Part shown: positions 9,672-19,882 of the stretch, in pieces | Layout: every line of letters starts with the position of its first letter | Position numbering within the stretch: the first letter of the stretch is position 1 | Origin: a virus | IMG/VR virus record: IMGVR_UViG_3300030109_000430 | Span: 1-20,022 of that record | Strand: one strand, 5' to 3' | Length of the DNA stretch: 20,022 nucleotides | Notes under the pieces: model-generated | What the model was told of the DNA's origin: nothing | Databases searched by the model: none | Seen by the model: the letters and a program-made list of their open reading frames with translations, nothing else | Position numbers and translations under genes: made by a program

Positions 9672-10035
9672 GTTGCACTTCCTCCACTACCTTCATTTCC
9701 TTCGGTGGGTCTAATGAAAAACTTACACTTATCTGATTAGGTATTCCCTCATGCTCCACCTTTTCCGTAAAACCTGCTTTTGTTTTTGCTAAAAATATAG
9801 CTGATATAGTATCACCTTTCATGGCTTTACTATACAATTTAGAACCTAAAGACATTACTAATCTTTCTCTACCAGTTTCTAATGCGTGTTTAAAATACTT
9901 GCGTAATGTTTTAGGACTACAACCTACTAATTTAGATATTTGTTCATGATTTAAACCAAACGCTACTCCTAAAGAACATATCCTTTCAGTTTCAGGCGTT
10001 GGCTCAAATGTAGGTCTACCAAATTTATCACTCAT
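9655..10035 (-). CDS. Probable terminase small subunit (HTH protein)
   Basis: A 126-residue protein whose N-terminal half holds a clear helix-turn-helix (AFGLNHEQISKLVGCSPKTL then RKYFKHALETGRE, about residues 27-58). The middle (LYSKAMKGDTISAIFLAKTKAGF) is helical, as in small-terminase oligomerisation regions, and the C-terminal tail is acidic (VVEEVQHEENS). Small terminases recognise the packaging site on phage DNA and regulate the large subunit. It lies upstream of the large terminase with two small genes between. It overlaps the methyltransferase stop by 8 nt. An alternative is a transcription regulator with the same fold. Confidence 0.68.
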   Translation of the reverse strand: MSDKFGRPTFEPTPETERICSLGVAFGLNHEQISKLVGCSPKTLRKYFKHALETGRERLVMSLGSKLYSKAMKGDTISAIFLAKTKAGFTEKVEHEGIPNQISVSFSLDPPKEMKVVEEVQHEENS

Positions 10036-11230
10036 TTATTAACTCTCCTTTACTACCTGTAAAGTTCTCCCATCTTTTTACTATAACATCACAATATTTA
10101 GGGTCTAGTTCCATTAATCTTGCTTTTCTATTTGTCTTTTCACAGGCTATCACAGTGCTTCCTGAACCTCCAAAACAATCTAAAACAATATCTTCTCTTT
10201 TACTACTATTGTTTATTGCTCTTTCAACTAAAGCTACTGGTTTTTGTGTCCCATGAACATATTCTGTTGTTTTATCTCTATTAATTGACCATAGATCAAA
10301 ATCTGATTTGTCTCCCTTTTTAAAATTCCCACCTTTAATGTATAAAATAAATTCACATTGTCTTCTGTATTTCATGTAGCCTAAACCTGCGTTTTTCTTA
10401 TCCCAAACTATAACTGCGTCTATCTTTTTTCCTAATTTTTCTATTATATCTAAAAATGGTTTTTGTTTAAGTGGAGATACACAAATATAAACATCTGCGT
10501 CTTGTTTTATGTATGAAAATGTTAAAGCTAGTAAAGAGCCTAATTCATCCCCTTCTAAAGTATCGTTTAATATTTTGCCGTATGTTTTTTTTTCAACGAC
10601 TTGTGTTCTTCCTCCTGAGTAGTTTATACCATAAGGAGGATCAGTAAATATCATATCGGCTTGCTCTGGACATAACTTATCTAAATTATCCACCATAGTA
10701 GAATCGCCACACATTAACCTATGATCACCTAGTTGCCATATATCGCCTAATTTAGTAACAGGCTCAATAGGTGGCTCTGGCACTTCATCTTCATCAGTTA
10801 AACCCTCAAACTCTTTTAATAAAAAACCATTAAGTTCTATATCATTAAAACCTAATAATGATATATCAAAATCATCATCAGACAACTCGCCTATTTCTAA
10901 AGCTAATATATTTTCGTCCCACCCTGCATTTGTGGCTAACTGGTTATCCGCTATTACATACGCCTTCTTTTGTTTTTCTGATAAATGGCTTAACCTTAAA
11001 CAAGGCACTTCTTTAATACCCATTTTTTTAGACGCTAACACCCTACCATGACCAGCTATTATTTCATTATTTTTATCTAATAGCACAGGATTAGTAAAAC
11101 CAAATTCTTTTATACTATTTTCAATTTGAGTAATTTGTTCTTTACTATGCGTCCTACTGTTATTTCTATAGGCAGTTAATTTTGTAGGATTTATCATTTC
11201 AATATTACTACTCATATTTTTTGGTAACAT
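10028..11230 (-). CDS. ParB-domain DNA methyltransferase (N6-adenine/N4-cytosine)
   Basis: A 400-residue two-domain protein. Residues about 12-130 form a ParB/sulfiredoxin-like domain (INPTKLTAYRNNSRTHSKEQ, GFTNPVLL, then IIAGHGRVLASKKMGIKEVP). The rest is an amino-methyltransferase with the catalytic DPPY at 197-200 (FTDPPYGINYSG) and the AdoMet-binding DCFGGSGS at about 351-358. Catalytic motif before AdoMet motif is the beta-class order, with the target-recognition region between. Such proteins methylate A or C in short sites and protect phage DNA from host restriction. No partner restriction enzyme is visible. The first ATG is weakly supported; Met6 (11215) is a possible start. The ParB domain lacks the central HTH that real ParB uses to read parS. 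Confidence 0.9.
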   Translation of the reverse strand: MLPKNMSSNIEMINPTKLTAYRNNSRTHSKEQITQIENSIKEFGFTNPVLLDKNNEIIAGHGRVLASKKMGIKEVPCLRLSHLSEKQKKAYVIADNQLATNAGWDENILALEIGELSDDDFDISLLGFNDIELNGFLLKEFEGLTDEDEVPEPPIEPVTKLGDIWQLGDHRLMCGDSTMVDNLDKLCPEQADMIFTDPPYGINYSGGRTQVVEKKTYGKILNDTLEGDELGSLLALTFSYIKQDADVYICVSPLKQKPFLDIIEKLGKKIDAVIVWDKKNAGLGYMKYRRQCEFILYIKGGNFKKGDKSDFDLWSINRDKTTEYVHGTQKPVALVERAINNSSKREDIVLDCFGGSGSTVIACEKTNRKARLMELDPKYCDVIVKRWENFTGSKGELINE

Positions 11231-11707: not shown

Positions 11708-12223
11708 CTATCCATGCGTATTTAATATATTAACAGCTATATTATGATCTTTATTATCATCAATAGAACTAAATTTATCTATGACTTTAGTATTACTTTC
11801 TTTCTCTAACTCTATATTGCTTATGCTTTGCTTATGCAAACTGTTAGCATTTGCTTGAGTAGTTTGGCTTCTATACTTACGTTTAGCAATTACTCCTTGT
11901 TTACCTGCTTTACTTCTTTGTGTTCGTATACCATCAATTTTATTCTTTTCCTTTAATAACCTCTTATTACTAAAGAACCCATCATTATCTACTGGCATAA
12001 ATAAAGGTTCTAATTCTTCGGTCCATAACTTAGTCCACTTTTTCCCTTCAGAAGCATAGCCACATATCTTATGAGCATGTCTATATTGTAGAGTACAATC
12101 ACGCTCTAAAAACATACGACAGAGGAGCTTTATATAACACCCAACGGCTTCATTACTTAAATGGTTAGTATCTACTAAGAAGTCTGCACAATAGAGTCCA
12201 AAGAAGAATGATTTTTCTTTCAT
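11708..12223 (-). CDS. DUF1376-like replication protein
   Basis: A 171-residue protein whose N-terminal 100 residues match the DUF1376 pattern: FFFGLYCADFLVDTNHLSNE followed by AVGCYIKLLCRMF, and later FFSNKRLLKEKNK. This winged-helix-like domain occurs in phage and prophage replication-initiation proteins and in YdaU-type prophage proteins. The C-terminal 70 residues are polar, Ser/Asn/Lys-rich and probably disordered. It is the last gene of the replication module, next to the structured non-coding region, so it may act at an origin there. The start overlaps the preceding HTH gene by four bases (ATGA), with AAAGGAAAG as ribosome-binding site. Confidence 0.7.
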   Translation of the reverse strand: MKEKSFFFGLYCADFLVDTNHLSNEAVGCYIKLLCRMFLERDCTLQYRHAHKICGYASEGKKWTKLWTEELEPLFMPVDNDGFFSNKRLLKEKNKIDGIRTQRSKAGKQGVIAKRKYRSQTTQANANSLHKQSISNIELEKESNTKVIDKFSSIDDNKDHNIAVNILNTHG

Positions 12224-12429
12224 AGTTCTTTCCTTTCATATGTATCATTAAGAGCTTCTACTATTGTATTGTAATCACAATCACATGCCGATTTAATCTT
12301 TTGCATTAAATGATAACTAGGTACTCTGCGTCCAGCTATTAGATGGCATATCATTCCTTCTGATACACCAACTTTCTTTGCAAAACTACGTTGTGTATGA
12401 TTCTTTAATATTAATTCTTTTAAACTCAT
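12220..12429 (-). CDS. Xre/Cro-type HTH regulator (69 aa)
   Basis: A 69-residue protein beginning MSLKELILKN. The start at 12429 is chosen because AGAAAGGATA lies just before it; the open frame extends 19 codons further into the previous gene without such a site. Residues about 11-45 form a Cro/C1-type helix-turn-helix (RSFAKKVGVSEGMICHLIAG then RRVPSYHLMQKI). It probably binds operator DNA as a dimer and may control early or replication genes; its target cannot be seen. It may also be a replication accessory factor, given the DUF1376-like gene it overlaps. Confidence 0.75.
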   Translation of the reverse strand: MSLKELILKNHTQRSFAKKVGVSEGMICHLIAGRRVPSYHLMQKIKSACDCDYNTIVEALNDTYERKEL

Positions 12430-12451
12430 ATCTTTATCCTTTCTTAATTTA

Positions 12452-13246
12452 TTAAACTCCACACATACCTTCATCACAGATGTCATTAAACATATCCATT
12501 TGGTCTTTATGTGGGTCTAGTTCTGCTTCATCTAATGGAACACAATCTTTATGTAAATACGCTTCAACATCTTTATAACGAATTTTATTTCTAATTTCTT
12601 TGTCAAATTTAATTAGTTGTGCCCATTCTTCTGGGTCTTTTTTATGTCGTAACCAAGAACTATTTGAATTAAATGGGCAATACGTACAAGCTGATTTATC
12701 TGGTATAGGGTGATTATTGTTTTTTAACCAGTTGTAACAATCTATCCTAGAAAATTGTTTTTCTAAAACTAATGGATATTGATTGTCTATCCACCAATCT
12801 CTACTTCTAGCCATTCTTGACATTTCATCTTTAGATATGCCTATTAACATTTCTACTTTAGTATCTTTAGGCACTCTTTGATGTTTTTTTAATCCTAACA
12901 ACTCTCTAACTTTTCTCTGAATAGGGTATATTTTATACTCCCTAGTGCATTGTCGTCTACCAAAACCTTTTTCTTCTGTTACAGTATTTTTAGTAAATAC
13001 AGGTATTTTTAAAAAATTACTATCTAAGCTATCTTGTTTTAAATTACCATTATCTACAATGTATAAAGGATAAGATAATTTTCCTTTTAAATAATCTAAC
13101 CATTTATAAACTTCTTTTGGTTCATCTTTAGTATCAGCAAATATTGCACAATCAACCATTGGAACTTCTCCATACTCTATCATTAAAGCTAATGTGCTAC
13201 TCTGTACTCCGGCTCCTAATGATAATATTCTTAATTGTTTAACCAT
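12452..13246 (-). CDS. PAPS-reductase-like adenine nucleotide alpha-hydrolase
   Basis: A 264-residue member of the ATP-pyrophosphatase/PAPS-reductase superfamily. The PP-loop is SLGAGVQSS at residues 9-17. The sequence then shows AIFADTKDEPKEVYKWL, GRRQCTREYKIYPI (Cys100), LIGISKDEMSRMARSRDWW and SACTYCPF (Cys187 and Cys190). The three cysteines could bind a metal or iron-sulfur cluster. These proteins activate substrates by adenylation; relatives include sulfur-transfer enzymes such as DndC and QueC-like enzymes. The real substrate here is unknown. The gene overlaps the helicase stop by 8 nt with AAAGGA before its ATG. Its place in the replication module hints at nucleotide or DNA modification rather than sulfate assimilation. 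Confidence 0.82.
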   Translation of the reverse strand: MVKQLRILSLGAGVQSSTLALMIEYGEVPMVDCAIFADTKDEPKEVYKWLDYLKGKLSYPLYIVDNGNLKQDSLDSNFLKIPVFTKNTVTEEKGFGRRQCTREYKIYPIQRKVRELLGLKKHQRVPKDTKVEMLIGISKDEMSRMARSRDWWIDNQYPLVLEKQFSRIDCYNWLKNNNHPIPDKSACTYCPFNSNSSWLRHKKDPEEWAQLIKFDKEIRNKIRYKDVEAYLHKDCVPLDEAELDPHKDQMDMFNDICDEGMCGV

Positions 13247-14735
13247 AAATATCCTTTCGATCTTTATTTATGTTAGCTGCCTTGTTCTCGCTTTCAAAAC
13301 AACCATTATCTACATTATAAGTCATATCCATTACTCTAGGATAACCAAGTTCTTCATAACGGGTTTTCCATATCGTTAGTTTACTCTCAGTATTACGACT
13401 TCCGTCATCATTTGTAAACTTAGGTCTCCATAAAGCCATTATATGATCTGGTTTATTATACCAATGGGCAGAGCCAGCTATGGAGTACGCTGTCGGTGCA
13501 GAATTAGCTATTTTAGCGTCTGGTTTAGCAGGGTGTGCTAATATCATTATGTGTATGTCTAATAACTTAGCTAATGTGCACATATCATCTAAACATCTAC
13601 CAATAAACTGTGTTTCACTACCTGTAGTAAATGATGGCATTTCTAACTTATTAAAGGGGTCTAATATAAAAGCACTAATGCCATATCTAGCTTTCATATC
13701 TCTTATTCTTTCACATACCCAATTAAACTCTGGTGCATTATTAGGGTGATTTAAAAAATAAAAATGATCTCTTATCCATTTATCCGCTTCTTCTGTTTGT
13801 GATGGGTACAGTTCATTTTCTAACTTTTTATGATAATAAGTGCGTAAATGTCTACGAACATAAGGTTTAACTCTTGTTTCTCCGCTAAACATACCTACAT
13901 TTACATTATACTTCATAACTATTTGCGCCCATAATTGTAAGGCAAAAGTAGTTTTACCATGACCCGGCATACCAGTAAACACACTCACCATACCACTACC
14001 AAACATGACTTTGTTATCCCAACCATCAAAATCAGGATTATATAATGTTATAGGCGCAGGTTCTGGTATTTCATCTAATGAATATACACCCTCAATAGGA
14101 AACTCTTGTAATGCTTCTTTTACTTGCCATTGTAGTTCTTCTTTACCTACCTTTTGCATAAATTCATTAATATCTTTAGTATCATCAGGTAATTCTACAA
14201 ACTTACAACGACCATGCCCTAATAAACCTGCTAAATCTGCTCTTAAAAATTTACCTGCATCATCATTATCTGTAAGTAAAACAAAACAATTTACATCATC
14301 TAAACCTTGTTCTAATCCGTCTAATACATATTTATATTTTCTTGAGCTATTTGGATCGTCTGTAGTAGTAGGAGGTGCGCCATTAGGTACACTTAATATA
14401 CTATCTATAGCAAAACCACTTTCTAATAAGGCACAAAGGTCAAATTCACCCTCCGTTATATATACTGTATCTAAATTTTTAGACTTTAAAACATTATCTA
14501 AATTATAAAATTGTTGCACACCTTGTGCTTGTTGTTTAAAGATTTTCTCTTTTATGGCTCTGGCTTTATAATTTACTCGTTCTCCTTTTAAATCATAATA
14601 ACCAAATACAATGGATTCTAATTTATCCTTACCATACTGTCCTTGTCCTGATTCTATTCGTAAATCTGTGAGGGTCTTTTGGCTGATTCCCCTCTTGTTT
14701 GCGAACTTTAGGACGTTGTCGCTGATATTCTTCAT
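13239..14735 (-). CDS. TOPRIM primase-DnaB-type helicase (T7 gp4/Twinkle-like), no zinc domain
   Basis: A 498-residue replicative primase-helicase. The N-terminal part (KLESIVFGYYDLKGERVNYK) matches the RNA-polymerase/TOPRIM section of T7 gp4, with TOPRIM residues Glu95 (ITEGEFD) and Asp156/Asp158 (LLTDNDDAG). The RecA-like helicase has Walker A GMPGHGKT (255-262), Walker B AFILDPFNKLE (about 354-364) and a later LAHPAKPD motif. It would unwind the fork and prime lagging strands as a hexamer. The usual N-terminal zinc-binding domain is missing and is encoded in another frame by the overlapping gene upstream. The ATG has GGAG nine bases before it, so separate translation is possible. Confidence 0.92.
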   Translation of the reverse strand: MKNISDNVLKFANKRGISQKTLTDLRIESGQGQYGKDKLESIVFGYYDLKGERVNYKARAIKEKIFKQQAQGVQQFYNLDNVLKSKNLDTVYITEGEFDLCALLESGFAIDSILSVPNGAPPTTTDDPNSSRKYKYVLDGLEQGLDDVNCFVLLTDNDDAGKFLRADLAGLLGHGRCKFVELPDDTKDINEFMQKVGKEELQWQVKEALQEFPIEGVYSLDEIPEPAPITLYNPDFDGWDNKVMFGSGMVSVFTGMPGHGKTTFALQLWAQIVMKYNVNVGMFSGETRVKPYVRRHLRTYYHKKLENELYPSQTEEADKWIRDHFYFLNHPNNAPEFNWVCERIRDMKARYGISAFILDPFNKLEMPSFTTGSETQFIGRCLDDMCTLAKLLDIHIMILAHPAKPDAKIANSAPTAYSIAGSAHWYNKPDHIMALWRPKFTNDDGSRNTESKLTIWKTRYEELGYPRVMDMTYNVDNGCFESENKAANINKDRKDIYG

Positions 14736-14907
14736 AAAATTCTGCTCCTTTAATATTACAATGGTGACAAAAATACACTACACAATCAGATTTTACTGTA
14801 ACTGATAAAGGTGTATCTCGTTTATTTTTAGTTCTAGTGTGTTGACAACTAGGGCAGGAATGCTTACCAGTTCTCTTAATTGCCAATACAAACTTTCTAT
14901 CCAGCAT
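14629..14907 (-). CDS. Primase zinc-binding domain protein (split from helicase)
   Basis: A 92-residue protein starting MLDRKFVLAIKRTGKHSCPS. It has CPSC at 18-21 and CHHC at 47-50, the four-cysteine zinc module that recognises priming sites in T7 gp4-type primases. After about residue 55 the sequence becomes Arg/Gln/Lys-rich and looks like an overlapping-frame tail; it overlaps the helicase gene by 107 nt in another frame. The domain normally lies on the same chain as TOPRIM-helicase. It may work as a separate subunit or be joined by a +1 frameshift near TTTT at the helicase start. The ATG at 14907 is used in preference to a TTG at 14922. Confidence 0.75.
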   Translation of the reverse strand: MLDRKFVLAIKRTGKHSCPSCQHTRTKNKRDTPLSVTVKSDCVVYFCHHCNIKGAEFYEEYQRQRPKVRKQEGNQPKDPHRFTNRIRTRTVW

Positions 14908-15097
14908 ATCGATACTCTGCAAAAGTTTTCTTTTTCACAGTTTTTCTAGTAGTTTCAATATTATGCCCATCTTGTCTTAAATCTAAAATACGAGCCGATA
15001 GTCTAAAACTCCCATATAATTCCAAAGCTTGTAACGGATTTATAGTTTTATGTTCTTTTAAATGAGCTAAAATTAAATCATTTTGTGTCTGTGTCAT
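14897..15097 (-). CDS. Small HTH-domain protein (66 aa)
   Basis: A 66-residue protein with a helix-turn-helix pattern (LILAHLKEHKTINPLQALEL, then GSFRLSARILDLRQDGHNIETT), close to the HTH_39 type often found in phage replication modules. The C-terminus is basic (RKTVKKKTFAEYRYAG). It probably binds DNA; whether as regulator or as replication helper is unknown. The ATG lies inside the end of the resolvase gene with GGGAG nine bases before it, and its stop overlaps the zinc-domain gene. Confidence 0.78.
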   Translation of the reverse strand: MTQTQNDLILAHLKEHKTINPLQALELYGSFRLSARILDLRQDGHNIETTRKTVKKKTFAEYRYAG

Positions 15098-15461
15098 TAT
15101 CTTTACTCCCTTTTAATTGTTCTACTTGTTGATGTAAGTCTGTTATTGTTTTCATTAAACTTAAAAGCATATTATATTCTAGGTAGCACTTAGGACTACC
15201 ATGATCTCGTTCTACTAATAAAAAATCTGCACCTTGCTTGGCTTTATCCCCAGTTCGCCAACCATGTTTCCATTTCTTACATTCAATAATATACTTTTCC
15301 CCAGTTGGTGATACAACATAGACATCATTAGGAAAATCTCTAAAGATGCCACTTCCGGGCTGTTTTCTAGCTTCCCAACCACTATCTTTATTTATTGTAT
15401 CAACAATCTTTTTCTCGAATTTAGAACCTTTAGCTTTAGCACTTCTTGCACTTAAAACCAT
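15078..15461 (-). CDS. Holliday-junction resolvase-like PD-(D/E)XK nuclease
   Basis: A 127-residue protein with the archaeal Hjc-like nuclease core: Glu16 (GSKFEKKI), Asp46 (FRDFPNDVYVV), and Glu60-x-Lys62 (YIIECKKWKHGW). The length agrees with small resolvases. It would cut branched or four-way DNA made during replication and recombination and prepare concatemers for packaging. The ATG at 15461 is chosen because GGGGA lies six bases before it and it abuts the zinc-ribbon gene; a TTG at 15497 would give a longer form. A polar C-terminal tail follows a short coiled-coil (TITDLHQQVEQLK). Confidence 0.82.
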   Translation of the reverse strand: MVLSARSAKAKGSKFEKKIVDTINKDSGWEARKQPGSGIFRDFPNDVYVVSPTGEKYIIECKKWKHGWRTGDKAKQGADFLLVERDHGSPKCYLEYNMLLSLMKTITDLHQQVEQLKGSKDNDTDTK

Positions 15462-15463
15462 TT

Positions 15464-15583
15464 TTAATCCCCATGTTTTTCTTTGCAATACCAACAATAC
15501 AACCTACTAAACACATAATATATATCTTTCGTGTTGCATTTTTTACACTCTATAAACTTTGCCTTAGAAAGGTATCTTATCAT
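15464..15583 (-). CDS. Zinc-ribbon microprotein (39 aa)
   Basis: A 39-codon frame starting MIRYLSKAKFIECKKCNTKD and ending CWYCKEKHGD. It carries two CxxC knuckles (Cys13/16 and Cys30/33) 13 residues apart, as in a minimal zinc ribbon. It begins 20 nt inside the SSB gene and stops three nt before the resolvase ATG, exactly filling the gap, and its last codons include the resolvase ribbon-binding GGGGA site. No strong ribosome-binding site precedes the ATG, so coupling to SSB translation is likely. I do not recognise a family; a protein or nucleic-acid binding role is plausible. Confidence 0.58.
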   Translation of the reverse strand: MIRYLSKAKFIECKKCNTKDIYYVFSRLYCWYCKEKHGD

Positions 15584-16106
15584 CAGGCATTTCACTTATA
15601 GCAGTATTATCTAAATCTTCTGTTTGTTGAAGATGTTTAAATGCTCCTACTGAACCTCTACTATAATTTAATAATATAAATTTAAGTTTTTGGTCAGCAG
15701 TAAGTGTGGCATCTCGGTTTACACATGCTTGTAGTATAATCGCCCAATCTCTACCTTGTAACTCCGCAACATCATGTCCGCCAGCAGTACCTTCCGTAGA
15801 TGGTTGATAGCTATTCTGAGGCGTTTGTGTAGGTTCTGTATGGGTATTTGGTTGCGGAGCTACTGTATCTCCTAATATAGTAATACTATCAACAAAATTC
15901 ATAGGCTTGCCACCTACTACTTTTTCTTTAAACTTTATGTCAATATTATTGCTCGCTTTTACATCTATAATATTTGTAACATATTGTGGATTAGCATAAT
16001 AAAATACACCATTTGTATCTGTTACTTTATATGTTTTACCAGCTTCCCAACCTTTTTCTATATTAGCTGGTCTAGGTGGTGTTATTTCTCTAACTTGTAT
16101 TTGCAT
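15564..16106 (-). CDS. Single-stranded DNA-binding protein (SSB-like)
   Basis: A 180-residue protein. The first 80 residues are beta-rich (YKVTDTNGVFYYANPQYVTN, IDIKFKEKVVGGKPMNFVDS), compatible with an OB-fold. A Pro/Gln/Thr/Ser linker follows at about 83-108, then a helical segment (DWAIILQACVNRDATLTADQ). The chain ends MPDDKIPF, an acidic tip of the kind by which SSBs recruit replication and repair partners. It would coat single-stranded phage DNA. It lies between an exonuclease and a resolvase, consistent with that job. AAAAGGAG precedes the ATG. The OB-fold is inferred; the C-terminal tip is the clearest evidence. Confidence 0.72.
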   Translation of the reverse strand: MQIQVREITPPRPANIEKGWEAGKTYKVTDTNGVFYYANPQYVTNIIDVKASNNIDIKFKEKVVGGKPMNFVDSITILGDTVAPQPNTHTEPTQTPQNSYQPSTEGTAGGHDVAELQGRDWAIILQACVNRDATLTADQKLKFILLNYSRGSVGAFKHLQQTEDLDNTAISEMPDDKIPF

Positions 16107-16185
16107 TATTTAACTCCTTTTTTGGTGATGGAATCAGGTAAGGAGTGTCTAAGTCATAACCCAACTCCATCATAAAATTAATCAT
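16090..16185 (-). CDS. Possible 31-aa peptide between exonuclease and SSB
   Basis: A 31-codon frame, MINFMMELGYDLDTPYLIPS to NANTS, that starts within the exonuclease stop region and runs 17 nt into the SSB gene. It bridges a 71-nt gap in the tight overlapping style of this genome. It has no recognised motif and no clear ribosome-binding site, so it may only carry ribosomes across the junction. Confidence 0.3.
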   Translation of the reverse strand: MINFMMELGYDLDTPYLIPSPKKELNNANTS

Positions 16186-16969
16186 TATTAGACCACTCCT
16201 TTTTATAATCTTTTATAAACTGATGTATATTACATATGTTAAGCCATACACATAAATCTCTCCTATATGTTTTAGGCGAATAATATCTTTCAGTTACTAC
16301 CCCATTGTCTCTGTTTACATGAACTATTAATCTGCCAAACTCATTAGTATGTTCTTCTTGTAATATAGCGTGCATATATCCTGCTAATTGTATTGCCCAT
16401 TTTTCACTAAAAACTAACGCTGATGCAGAACCAGATTTATAATCTACTAAACATCTACCATAATCTTTTACAATAGCTTCTAAATCATATTTACCTGCAT
16501 ACAGAGGTTCTTTGCTATAAATAAGTTTTTCTACAGATAATGTTTTTTCTACTCTTTCTTTATACCAGTCTAACATATTAGATTGTAGCATTTTAATATG
16601 GTCATCAGTACTAAACTTAGGCTTTAAACCTTTAGCATAACACTCTAAGAAATCGTGAATTTCCGATCCTCTTGTAGCACTAGCAGTCCAAACATTTACA
16701 GCATCTCTACTTGCTTCTTTTAAATACTTAGTAAAACTTGTTTTATTCCATTTATAAGTTTGCTCATAATCCATAGAATCTATTAAAGTTTCTCTAAGGT
16801 TTTTTCTGCCAGCAGCAGCAGCCATACCAAAATCAGAAAATACTGGCTTCATTATAGTTGTTACTGATGTTGGTACAGTAATAATACCTTTAGCATCTAT
16901 AGCCTCATAAGTATGATTACTTGGTTTATGCTTTACTGTAGTGCCATCATTTAATGTTCTAGTTTCCAT
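16178..16969 (-). CDS. PD-(D/E)XK exonuclease (RecB/Cas4-like)
   Basis: A 263-residue nuclease. The RecB/Cas4-type motifs are in order: RGSEIHDFLE with His105, AGKYDLEAIV with Asp162, LVDYKSGSA with Asp176 and Lys178, and KWAIQLAGY with Gln194 and Tyr198. No cysteine cluster for an iron-sulfur centre is seen, unlike Cas4. The protein would digest DNA ends for phage recombination or degrade host DNA. It is directly upstream of SSB and two genes from a resolvase, forming a recombination set. The start overlaps the end of the preceding small gene by 11 nt. Confidence 0.85.
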   Translation of the reverse strand: METRTLNDGTTVKHKPSNHTYEAIDAKGIITVPTSVTTIMKPVFSDFGMAAAAGRKNLRETLIDSMDYEQTYKWNKTSFTKYLKEASRDAVNVWTASATRGSEIHDFLECYAKGLKPKFSTDDHIKMLQSNMLDWYKERVEKTLSVEKLIYSKEPLYAGKYDLEAIVKDYGRCLVDYKSGSASALVFSEKWAIQLAGYMHAILQEEHTNEFGRLIVHVNRDNGVVTERYYSPKTYRRDLCVWLNICNIHQFIKDYKKEWSNND

Positions 16970-18328: not shown

Positions 18329-18391
18329 TTAGACTCTCCTTTTATTTAATTAATATATTATTAATATAACCATTACTATACTATATGTCAA
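18329..18391 (-). repeat. Promoter-leader cassette, copy 2
   Basis: This is the second copy of the early leader described at 17821-17888. It shares the TAGACTCTCCTTTT block next to the start codon, the AT-rich middle and the GTCAAG at the -35 end. The middle has diverged by small insertions and substitutions. Confidence 0.55.
18363..18391 (-). promoter_or_regulatory. Sigma-70-type early promoter (leftward, first)
   Basis: On the minus strand TTGACA (18386-18391) is followed after 17 nt by TATATT (18363-18368). It would transcribe the winged-helix gene and the genes beyond. The spacer contains ATAGTATAGTAATG, similar to ATAGGTATAGTTATG in the divergent promoter, a possible common operator. 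Confidence 0.68.
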
Positions 18392-18393
18392 GT

Positions 18394-18425
18394 AATTAAT
18401 TAAAATAATTATTATTTAATTAATT
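18394..18425. promoter_or_regulatory. AT-rich dyad between divergent promoters
   Basis: A 32-bp AT-only stretch has perfect 11-bp inverted arms (AATTAATTAAA and TTTAATTAATT) around a 10-nt centre. It lies between the two opposed -35 boxes, 2 bp from one and 6 bp from the other. It can act as UP elements for both promoters, as an operator, or as an easily melted site. Sequence alone does not decide between these. Confidence 0.5.
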
Positions 18426-18431
18426 TAATAC

Positions 18432-18461
18432 TTGACAATAGGTATAGTTATGTGTTATACT
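18432..18461 (+). promoter_or_regulatory. Sigma-70-type early promoter (rightward)
   Basis: TTGACA (18432-18437) is followed after 18 nt by TATACT (18456-18461), about 30 nt before the start codon at 18494. The strong AAAAGGAGG ribosome-binding site follows. It drives the only rightward operon in the window. Confidence 0.72.
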
Positions 18462-18697: not shown

Positions 18698-19213
18698 ATG
18701 CAACCATTAGTAAAAATGCAATCTCAATGGGAAGTAAAAAGACCCATTAAAGAAAGAATAAAACTAATACAAGACCAAGCCTATAATGTATCTGGCAAAC
18801 ATATATCATATAAAGAAGCTAAGAAATTAGTACAAGATATGATGCAAGCCACACATTATAAAAATGATAAGTACCAAGTTTATGTAGCTAGTCAAGAAGA
18901 AACAGACAGTATGTGTTTAACGGATCAATTTAAATCTATGGGTATAACATATCTATCTATTAAAAGATTAGACTTAGAACCCATACATGATTGGCGAGAT
19001 TTACAAGAAATAAAAAACCAAATATGTGGTAAAGATAGAGAAGGTTTAGAACTATATCCTTCTGAAGATAGAGTAGTTGATACAGCTAACCAATATCATA
19101 TGTTTGTTTTTGGAAAAGACTATAAAATACCATTAGGGTTTATGAAAGGGTTTAAATCAGAAGCAGAATATAATAGTAATGGAATGATTTCTAAACAAAG
19201 AAAGTTGACATAA
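18698..19213 (+). CDS. Conserved phage protein, DUF7694-like (171 aa)
   Basis: A 171-residue soluble protein. The core YLSIKRLDLEPIHDWRDLQE, then NQICGKDREGLELYPSEDRV and ANQYHMFVFG…IPLGF, is a pattern I recall from many phages of proteobacteria as a conserved domain of unknown function (I believe DUF7694). The N-terminal 60 residues are basic and helical. AGGAG before the ATG supports the start. It is the last gene of the rightward operon and stops 5 nt before the parS palindrome. It is a probable early function; nothing shows an enzymatic site. Confidence 0.8.
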   Translation: MQPLVKMQSQWEVKRPIKERIKLIQDQAYNVSGKHISYKEAKKLVQDMMQATHYKNDKYQVYVASQEETDSMCLTDQFKSMGITYLSIKRLDLEPIHDWRDLQEIKNQICGKDREGLELYPSEDRVVDTANQYHMFVFGKDYKIPLGFMKGFKSEAEYNSNGMISKQRKLT

Positions 19214-19217
19214 ATAA

Positions 19218-19233
19218 TGTTTCACGTGAAACA
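19218..19233. other. Perfect parS centromere palindrome
   Basis: TGTTTCACGTGAAACA is an exact copy of the 16-bp parS site bound by chromosomal ParB proteins in most bacteria. It lies in a 21-bp gap between two convergent genes. No U-run follows it on either side, so it is a poor intrinsic terminator. No ParA or ParB of the chromosome-segregation type is encoded in this window. Host ParB would be expected to load here. The exact match to the consensus is seen; its use by the phage is inference. Confidence 0.85.
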
Positions 19234-19234
19234 A

Positions 19235-19882
19235 TTACTGACCAGTTAAAGGATTATTTAATGCTCTTTCTAAAACTTTAATTAGACGTTCTTCTAACTC
19301 TTTTAACTTAACATCTATAGCTTCATTACGTCTTTGTGCATCAGATTCTATAGCCGTTCTTTTGCCATCAAACCTATCTTCTGCATGTTGTATTAAAGTT
19401 CTTACATCATTCTCTGCTGTACGTTGACTACCTCTTATTTCTTGTTCGGTAGTTCTTGATCTTTTATCCACGTTAGCTATAGCGTCCATAATATCATTTA
19501 TATCTTTACGCAATTCATTACGAATATCTCTAGCATCACCTTGTGCTGCTGTTACTAATTCTAATGCTGTAGATATTTCAGACTGTAAAATTTGTTCCAT
19601 ATTGGCAATTTTAGTTTCTAATGTATTATCCATGTTAAATATTTTATCATTTAATACTGTTTCTAAATTAGTTATCTTTTCTTCAAATACATTTAAACGA
19701 CTTTCAAACCCAGTTAAATCAGGTGGTTCATAAGATTTTATAACTTCTTTCATGTCCATGTAATCTTTATACACTTCAAATGCACCATAAGCACCACCAA
19801 CTAATGTTGATAATGCTATTAATATACCTACTAATTTGCCACCTCTAAATTTAATACCAGCAAATTCTAATTCGTTACTCAT
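19235..19882 (-). CDS. Membrane-anchored coiled-coil protein (215 aa)
   Basis: A 215-residue protein. The ATG at 19882 has GGAG six bases before it and is preferred to a TTG at 19894. One hydrophobic segment (KLVGILIALSTLVGGAYGAF) lies at about residues 15-36, with few charged residues, followed by KDYMDMKEVIKSYEPPD and a long charged coiled coil from about 60 to 210. The layout suggests a membrane-anchored rod, like some phage lysis or ejection-related proteins, or a virion component. I do not recognise a named family. It ends two bases from the parS site and follows the partial gene to the right with an 8-nt overlap. Confidence 0.72.
   Translation of the reverse strand: MSNELEFAGIKFRGGKLVGILIALSTLVGGAYGAFEVYKDYMDMKEVIKSYEPPDLTGFESRLNVFEEKITNLETVLNDKIFNMDNTLETKIANMEQILQSEISTALELVTAAQGDARDIRNELRKDINDIMDAIANVDKRSRTTEQEIRGSQRTAENDVRTLIQHAEDRFDGKRTAIESDAQRRNEAIDVKLKELEERLIKVLERALNNPLTGQ

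Follow-up and report, generated by a model that had tools for sequence, protein, structure and literature searches.

Phage-plasmids of the P1 and N15 type encode both ParA and ParB and partition their extrachromosomal phage DNA by means of ParB–parS. To our knowledge, parS is nearly universal in bacteria, and the chromosomal ParB/Spo0J–parS system has a 16-bp consensus identical to the site described below, of which a variant changed at the centre is also found on chromosomes. The borrowing of a host ParB by means of parS has already been reported for a few mobile elements. For its genome to become trapped in spores, phage phi29 depends on the host protein Spo0J (Meijer et al., 2005, cited in PMC9437464), and the parS mimics of SGI1 use and upset the ParABS system of IncC plasmids, stabilizing SGI1 and harming the rival replicon (PMC10954446).

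The locus under study lies in a stretch of 20,022 bases, hereafter the window, which is a whole IMG/VR record. It carries a parS of the chromosomal type and, unlike phage-plasmids of the P1 and N15 type, no ParA or ParB was found in it or in the relatives searched. The site differs from chromosomal parS in that it stands by itself in a phage record that has no parAB, and not at oriC. Phage phi29 is likewise a phage without par genes of its own that depends on host ParB (PMC9437464), although the role shown for it is spore entrapment in a Bacillus, whereas the window and its relatives give no evidence of sporulation and the site is single and intergenic. SGI1 likewise bears parS-like sites without its own parAB, which are recognized in trans, but these are of a plasmid type and use a plasmid ParB, whereas the window virus has the chromosomal consensus (PMC10954446). 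In the literature searched, with most subscription papers and all preprints outside its reach, there was no report of phages that are devoid of par genes and recurrently carry the chromosomal parS, and no direct report of parS in lytic phages or Microviridae or of the hijacking of host ParB by a phage. The suggestion of an earlier note on this DNA that such a site had not been described for phages of this kind has to be qualified, phi29 and SGI1 being precedents for the principle. A recurrent chromosomal parS in phages without par genes is apparently new, and apparently widespread.

The site and its surroundings

The window belongs to a tailed phage in which terminase, portal, major head protein, primase-helicase and exonuclease genes are recognizable, and since relatives measure 34–38 kb it probably represents about half a genome. 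This phage and the relatives carrying the site are AT-rich, probably marine, tailed phages. A motif scan of all 20,022 bases found TGTTTCACGTGAAACA with 0 mismatches to the parS consensus and no second match within three mismatches (Table 1). At the base composition of the window (GC 0.32), an exact 16-mer has a probability of 2.8e-10 per position and of about 6e-6 per window. Only the perfect match is informative, since 9 of 100 shuffled windows contain a match within three mismatches. The earlier note's description of an exact parS 16-mer, rare by chance and alone in a short gap between convergent genes, is borne out in each of these respects, the 16-mer taking up most of that gap.

Table 1. 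Coordinates of the parS locus and of other features of the window.
Feature	Position	Strand	Remark
ParB_N + N6/N4 DNA methylase fusion	10028..11230	-	ParB_N match 10961-11206
Divergent promoter-like pair upstream of two operons	18363..18461	.	Consensus match only; context
171-aa DUF7694 / phrog_7839 protein	18698..19213	+	Left, converging neighbour of parS
21-bp convergent intergenic gap around parS	19214..19234	.	Gene ends 19213 (+), 19235 (-)
parS-type 16-bp palindrome TGTTTCACGTGAAACA	19218..19233	.	Exact match; putative host ParB-loading site
214-aa coiled-coil-like protein	19235..19879	-	Right neighbour of parS; common to many otherwise different phages

An 89% identical copy of the DUF7694 protein is encoded in a 5.9-kb record (L122), where it has another right neighbour and where no parS was found. 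No PHROG or Pfam entry matches the coiled-coil protein, relatives of which occur in over 590 IMG/VR stretches. Its gene (compared across L124–L203) is up to 92% identical between otherwise unrelated phages, such as the window phage and G005, and therefore moves between phage types.

Three longer genomes place the site in a wider context. The head genes of the window recur in G004 (34.0 kb) and G009 (38.0 kb), with TerL identities of 99% and 95%, respectively, and in G009 parS is found at the point where the late operon and the replication operon run towards each other. Relative to these two genomes, the replication module of the window (11708–16969) is inverted with respect to the head-gene module, parS still lying behind the coiled-coil gene. 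G005 (38.2 kb), taken as complete because of its 99-base terminal direct repeat, has only the coiled-coil gene in common with the window, and its one exact parS sits precisely where the rightward operon stops and meets the lysozyme gene, the last of the leftward operon. Placement at a convergent junction is thus seen in the window and in near relatives, though not in every carrier, as parS lies between co-directional genes in L150 and L182; convergence is common at parS without being required.

Recurrence in relatives and absence of partition genes

Loci of relatives were gathered through the neighbouring coiled-coil gene, independently of the presence of the site. Among the whole records of 50 relatives (1.02 Mb), parS was found within two mismatches in 23 and as an exact copy in 15, against 0.0003 exact matches expected by chance, and the reversed palindrome used as a control was found in none of the same records. 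The exact parS directly follows the stop codon of the coiled-coil gene in L124 and L125, the same place as in the window, where the earlier note had proposed to look for it in related phages. At that place, a variant with a different centre, TGTTTCACATGAAACA, is found in L126, L130, L133–L135 and L137, TGTTTCATATGAAACA in L138 and another changed-centre site in L189, whereas further relatives with the coiled-coil gene have exact parS at different loci. The note had held that absence or divergence of the palindrome in close relatives would speak against its reading; the palindrome is intact in L124 and L125, while the centre of some other close relatives reads CACATG or CATATG. No site was found in about half of the relatives with the coiled-coil gene, including the near full-length G018 and G033, so that the site is not essential.

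Clustering of the parS contexts gave 12 groups whose flanks are unrelated in sequence. Among representatives of the 12 contexts, the columns of the 16-mer are invariant (2 bits), and the flanks fall to about 0–0.4 bit per column beyond 2–3 bp. An invariant 16-mer within unconserved flanks indicates that selection acts on the 16-mer itself, and its sharing by unrelated contexts indicates that different loci have acquired or retained it time and again. Most of the sites abut stop codons, in gaps as small as they can be, L182 for instance reading TAA-TGTTTCACGTGAAACA-AAATG.

The same consensus is present in many bacteria. In a scan of 56 genomes from the class of an Alteromonadales metagenome-assembled genome (MAG), the consensus or variants with one mismatch were found in 26 and the reversed control in three. 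Two of the 56 genomes have no other site within one mismatch than TGTTTCACATGAAACA, which in one of them lies 32 kb from parB; this makes the changed-centre phage copies plausible parS variants. A search of genome contigs with a TerL profile found no relative, and a search of such contigs with the coiled-coil protein brought up no more than two MAG contigs, both distant and labelled Verrucomicrobia and Alteromonadales. The window terminase is nearest to those of HTVC010P-like pelagiphages and of the Methylophilales phage Venkman (about 47%). The nearest isolates tested, by TerL or by the coiled-coil gene, were the pelagiphages Hodr, HTVC115P and HTVC010P and phage Venkman, in none of which a site was found within one mismatch.

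Profiles of partition proteins gave no candidate partner for the site on the phage itself. ParA (PF13614) had no match in 49 records, G005 included, and HTH_ParB (PF17762) none in 29 carriers, most records being fragments in both cases; in the apparently complete G005 there was no match to ParA, ParB_N or an integrase. ParB_N (PF02195) exceeded the cut-off only in the methylase fusion of the window and in two records that yielded no parS match. This fusion was rejected as the partner of parS, having no HTH_ParB and being missing from G004 and G009, near relatives that do bear parS; judged by its domains, it is not a segregation ParB. The earlier note had seen no segregation-type ParA or ParB in the window, and the profile searches agree with it. 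A self-contained ParABS would include a ParA and a ParB with its HTH domain on the same replicon, neither of which was found, and a parS without its own parAB is what a site acting in trans looks like. Integrase matches occurred in five relatives, four of them over the cut-off and all five without parS. The contrast between 0 of 28 parS carriers and 5 of 21 non-carriers (Fisher p 0.011) is drawn from many fragmentary records and may partly reflect ancestry.

Possible roles of the site

The identification as parS is supported by the exact match, its recurrence, the confinement of selection to the 16-mer and the lack of ParA, ParB HTH or integrase matches in carriers; these results strongly favour what the earlier note had proposed, a host-type parS in a phage without its own par genes. 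Since the phage and many of its relatives carry an exact parS without encoding partition proteins, host ParB is probably borrowed. We give a probability of roughly 0.55 to a reading in which the 16-mer loads host chromosomal ParB and places the DNA of a non-integrating phage under host ParA/ParB, and perhaps SMC, for positioning or for sharing between daughter cells. A host ParB of matching specificity would bind the phage parS during infection, close as a CTP-dependent clamp and spread over adjacent phage DNA. The spread protein would in turn bring the phage genome under the ParA/ParB machinery of the host, perhaps together with SMC, so that unintegrated DNA might be positioned or split between daughter cells without the phage having to encode a par gene. 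The near universality of parS means that a phage could dock onto the machine of most hosts at the price of 16 bp. If confirmed, this would tie lytic or episomal infection to the segregation of the host chromosome far outside the spore case of phi29, predict carrier-state persistence or a targeted disruption of segregation, turn parS into an easy sequence marker by which such phages can be found, and make it testable whether the spreading of host ParB positions, condenses or silences viral genomes.

A lytic phage present in many copies, with a single site on each, could just as well titrate ParB. Sequence does not choose between the roles that the earlier note had listed, namely placement or segregation, titration, silencing and a terminus, and how weight is divided here between the roles of ParB is a judgement. 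The main rival is accordingly a decoy or incompatibility effect, in which replicated phage genomes would draw host ParB off oriC and stall segregation or division to the benefit of the phage. Replication multiplies the one copy that each genome carries, the parS mimics of SGI1 destabilize the helper plasmid in a manner where copy number matters (PMC10954446), and one inovirus (bajarodino virus 6, below) packs several copies into a small genome; a decoy should, however, favour many sites, whereas relatives of the window keep one, at most two, per record, and we consider this role unlikely, though to be taken seriously. Ranked after titration, and improbable in our estimate, is a part in DNA architecture, host ParB loading SMC condensin and so aiding the separation or compaction of replicated phage genomes, or insulating converging transcription units. 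The loading of SMC by ParB–parS is established in bacteria (PMC10197239), and the junctions at which parS lies in G005, G009 and the window, where the two main operons of the first two meet end to end, would suit such a part, to which the co-directional settings of L150 and L182 are opposed.

Explanations that dispense with ParB fare worse. The short palindrome might be an operator or other site for a phage-encoded DNA-binding protein, its likeness to parS being fortuitous, and the window does encode an HTH_3 protein besides the ParB_N–methylase fusion. The exact identity of the site across unrelated phage groups and chromosomes, its usual position at the 3′ ends of genes rather than at promoters, the lack of HTH_ParB in all 29 carriers and the absence of the fusion from near relatives make this very doubtful. 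Still less credible is a shared bidirectional transcription terminator or RNA hairpin. The frequent occurrence of the site at convergent 3′ ends and the CACATG/CATATG variation in what would be the loop fit such an element, but sites also lie between co-directional genes, and a stem invariant across 12 contexts is not required of a hairpin. An intrinsic terminator, with its GC-rich stem, T run and stable RNA hairpin, was rejected for the window, the gap containing no terminator-like site and the RNA fold z-scores being weak (-1.1 and -0.5); the possibility raised in the earlier note that the palindrome is only a terminator thus finds no support. A chance match, or chromosomal DNA contaminating the records, has only the short length of the site in its favour and can be set aside for practical purposes given the excess of exact records over expectation, reversed-palindrome controls near zero everywhere and the phage genes that flank the site in complete or near-complete phage records.

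Exact parS in other phages

Across all of IMG/VR, exact parS was found in at least 120 stretches and the reversed palindrome in one. ParB_N is absent from 24 of the 28 larger carriers (30–201 kb). Among isolate phages, a 32-base query containing parS matches 309 records and its control one. Three exact parS and no ParB_N are found both in Lactobacillus phage Bromius (L253, MH809531.1) and in Butyrivibrio phage Arian (L244, MN882551.2), one exact site, one with a single mismatch and no ParB_N in the phi29-like Bacillus phage Goe1, and six exact sites within 5.9 kb, again without ParB_N, in the inovirus bajarodino virus 6 (L243, PQ006135.1). It is in our view an even bet that a wide and for the most part unrecognized class of non-integrating phages, tailed and filamentous, of Gram-negative and Gram-positive hosts has repeatedly acquired parS to use or jam host ParB/ParA/SMC during infection, the window belonging to a marine branch of this class.

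The hosts of Bromius and Arian differ from the Bacillus spore case of phi29. In the filamentous bajarodino virus 6, five of the six copies of parS lie in annotated intergenic gaps, and this virus is a striking candidate for an inovirus that hijacks partition or titrates ParB. Short parS queries also match many phages of Microbacterium, Arthrobacter and Gordonia, some of them at a recurrent annotated gene (HTH protein or capsid protease). Three IMG/VR stretches (L016, L043 and L052) contain three to five exact parS within about 1 kb and could be chromosome fragments, phage-plasmids or phages with multiple parS.
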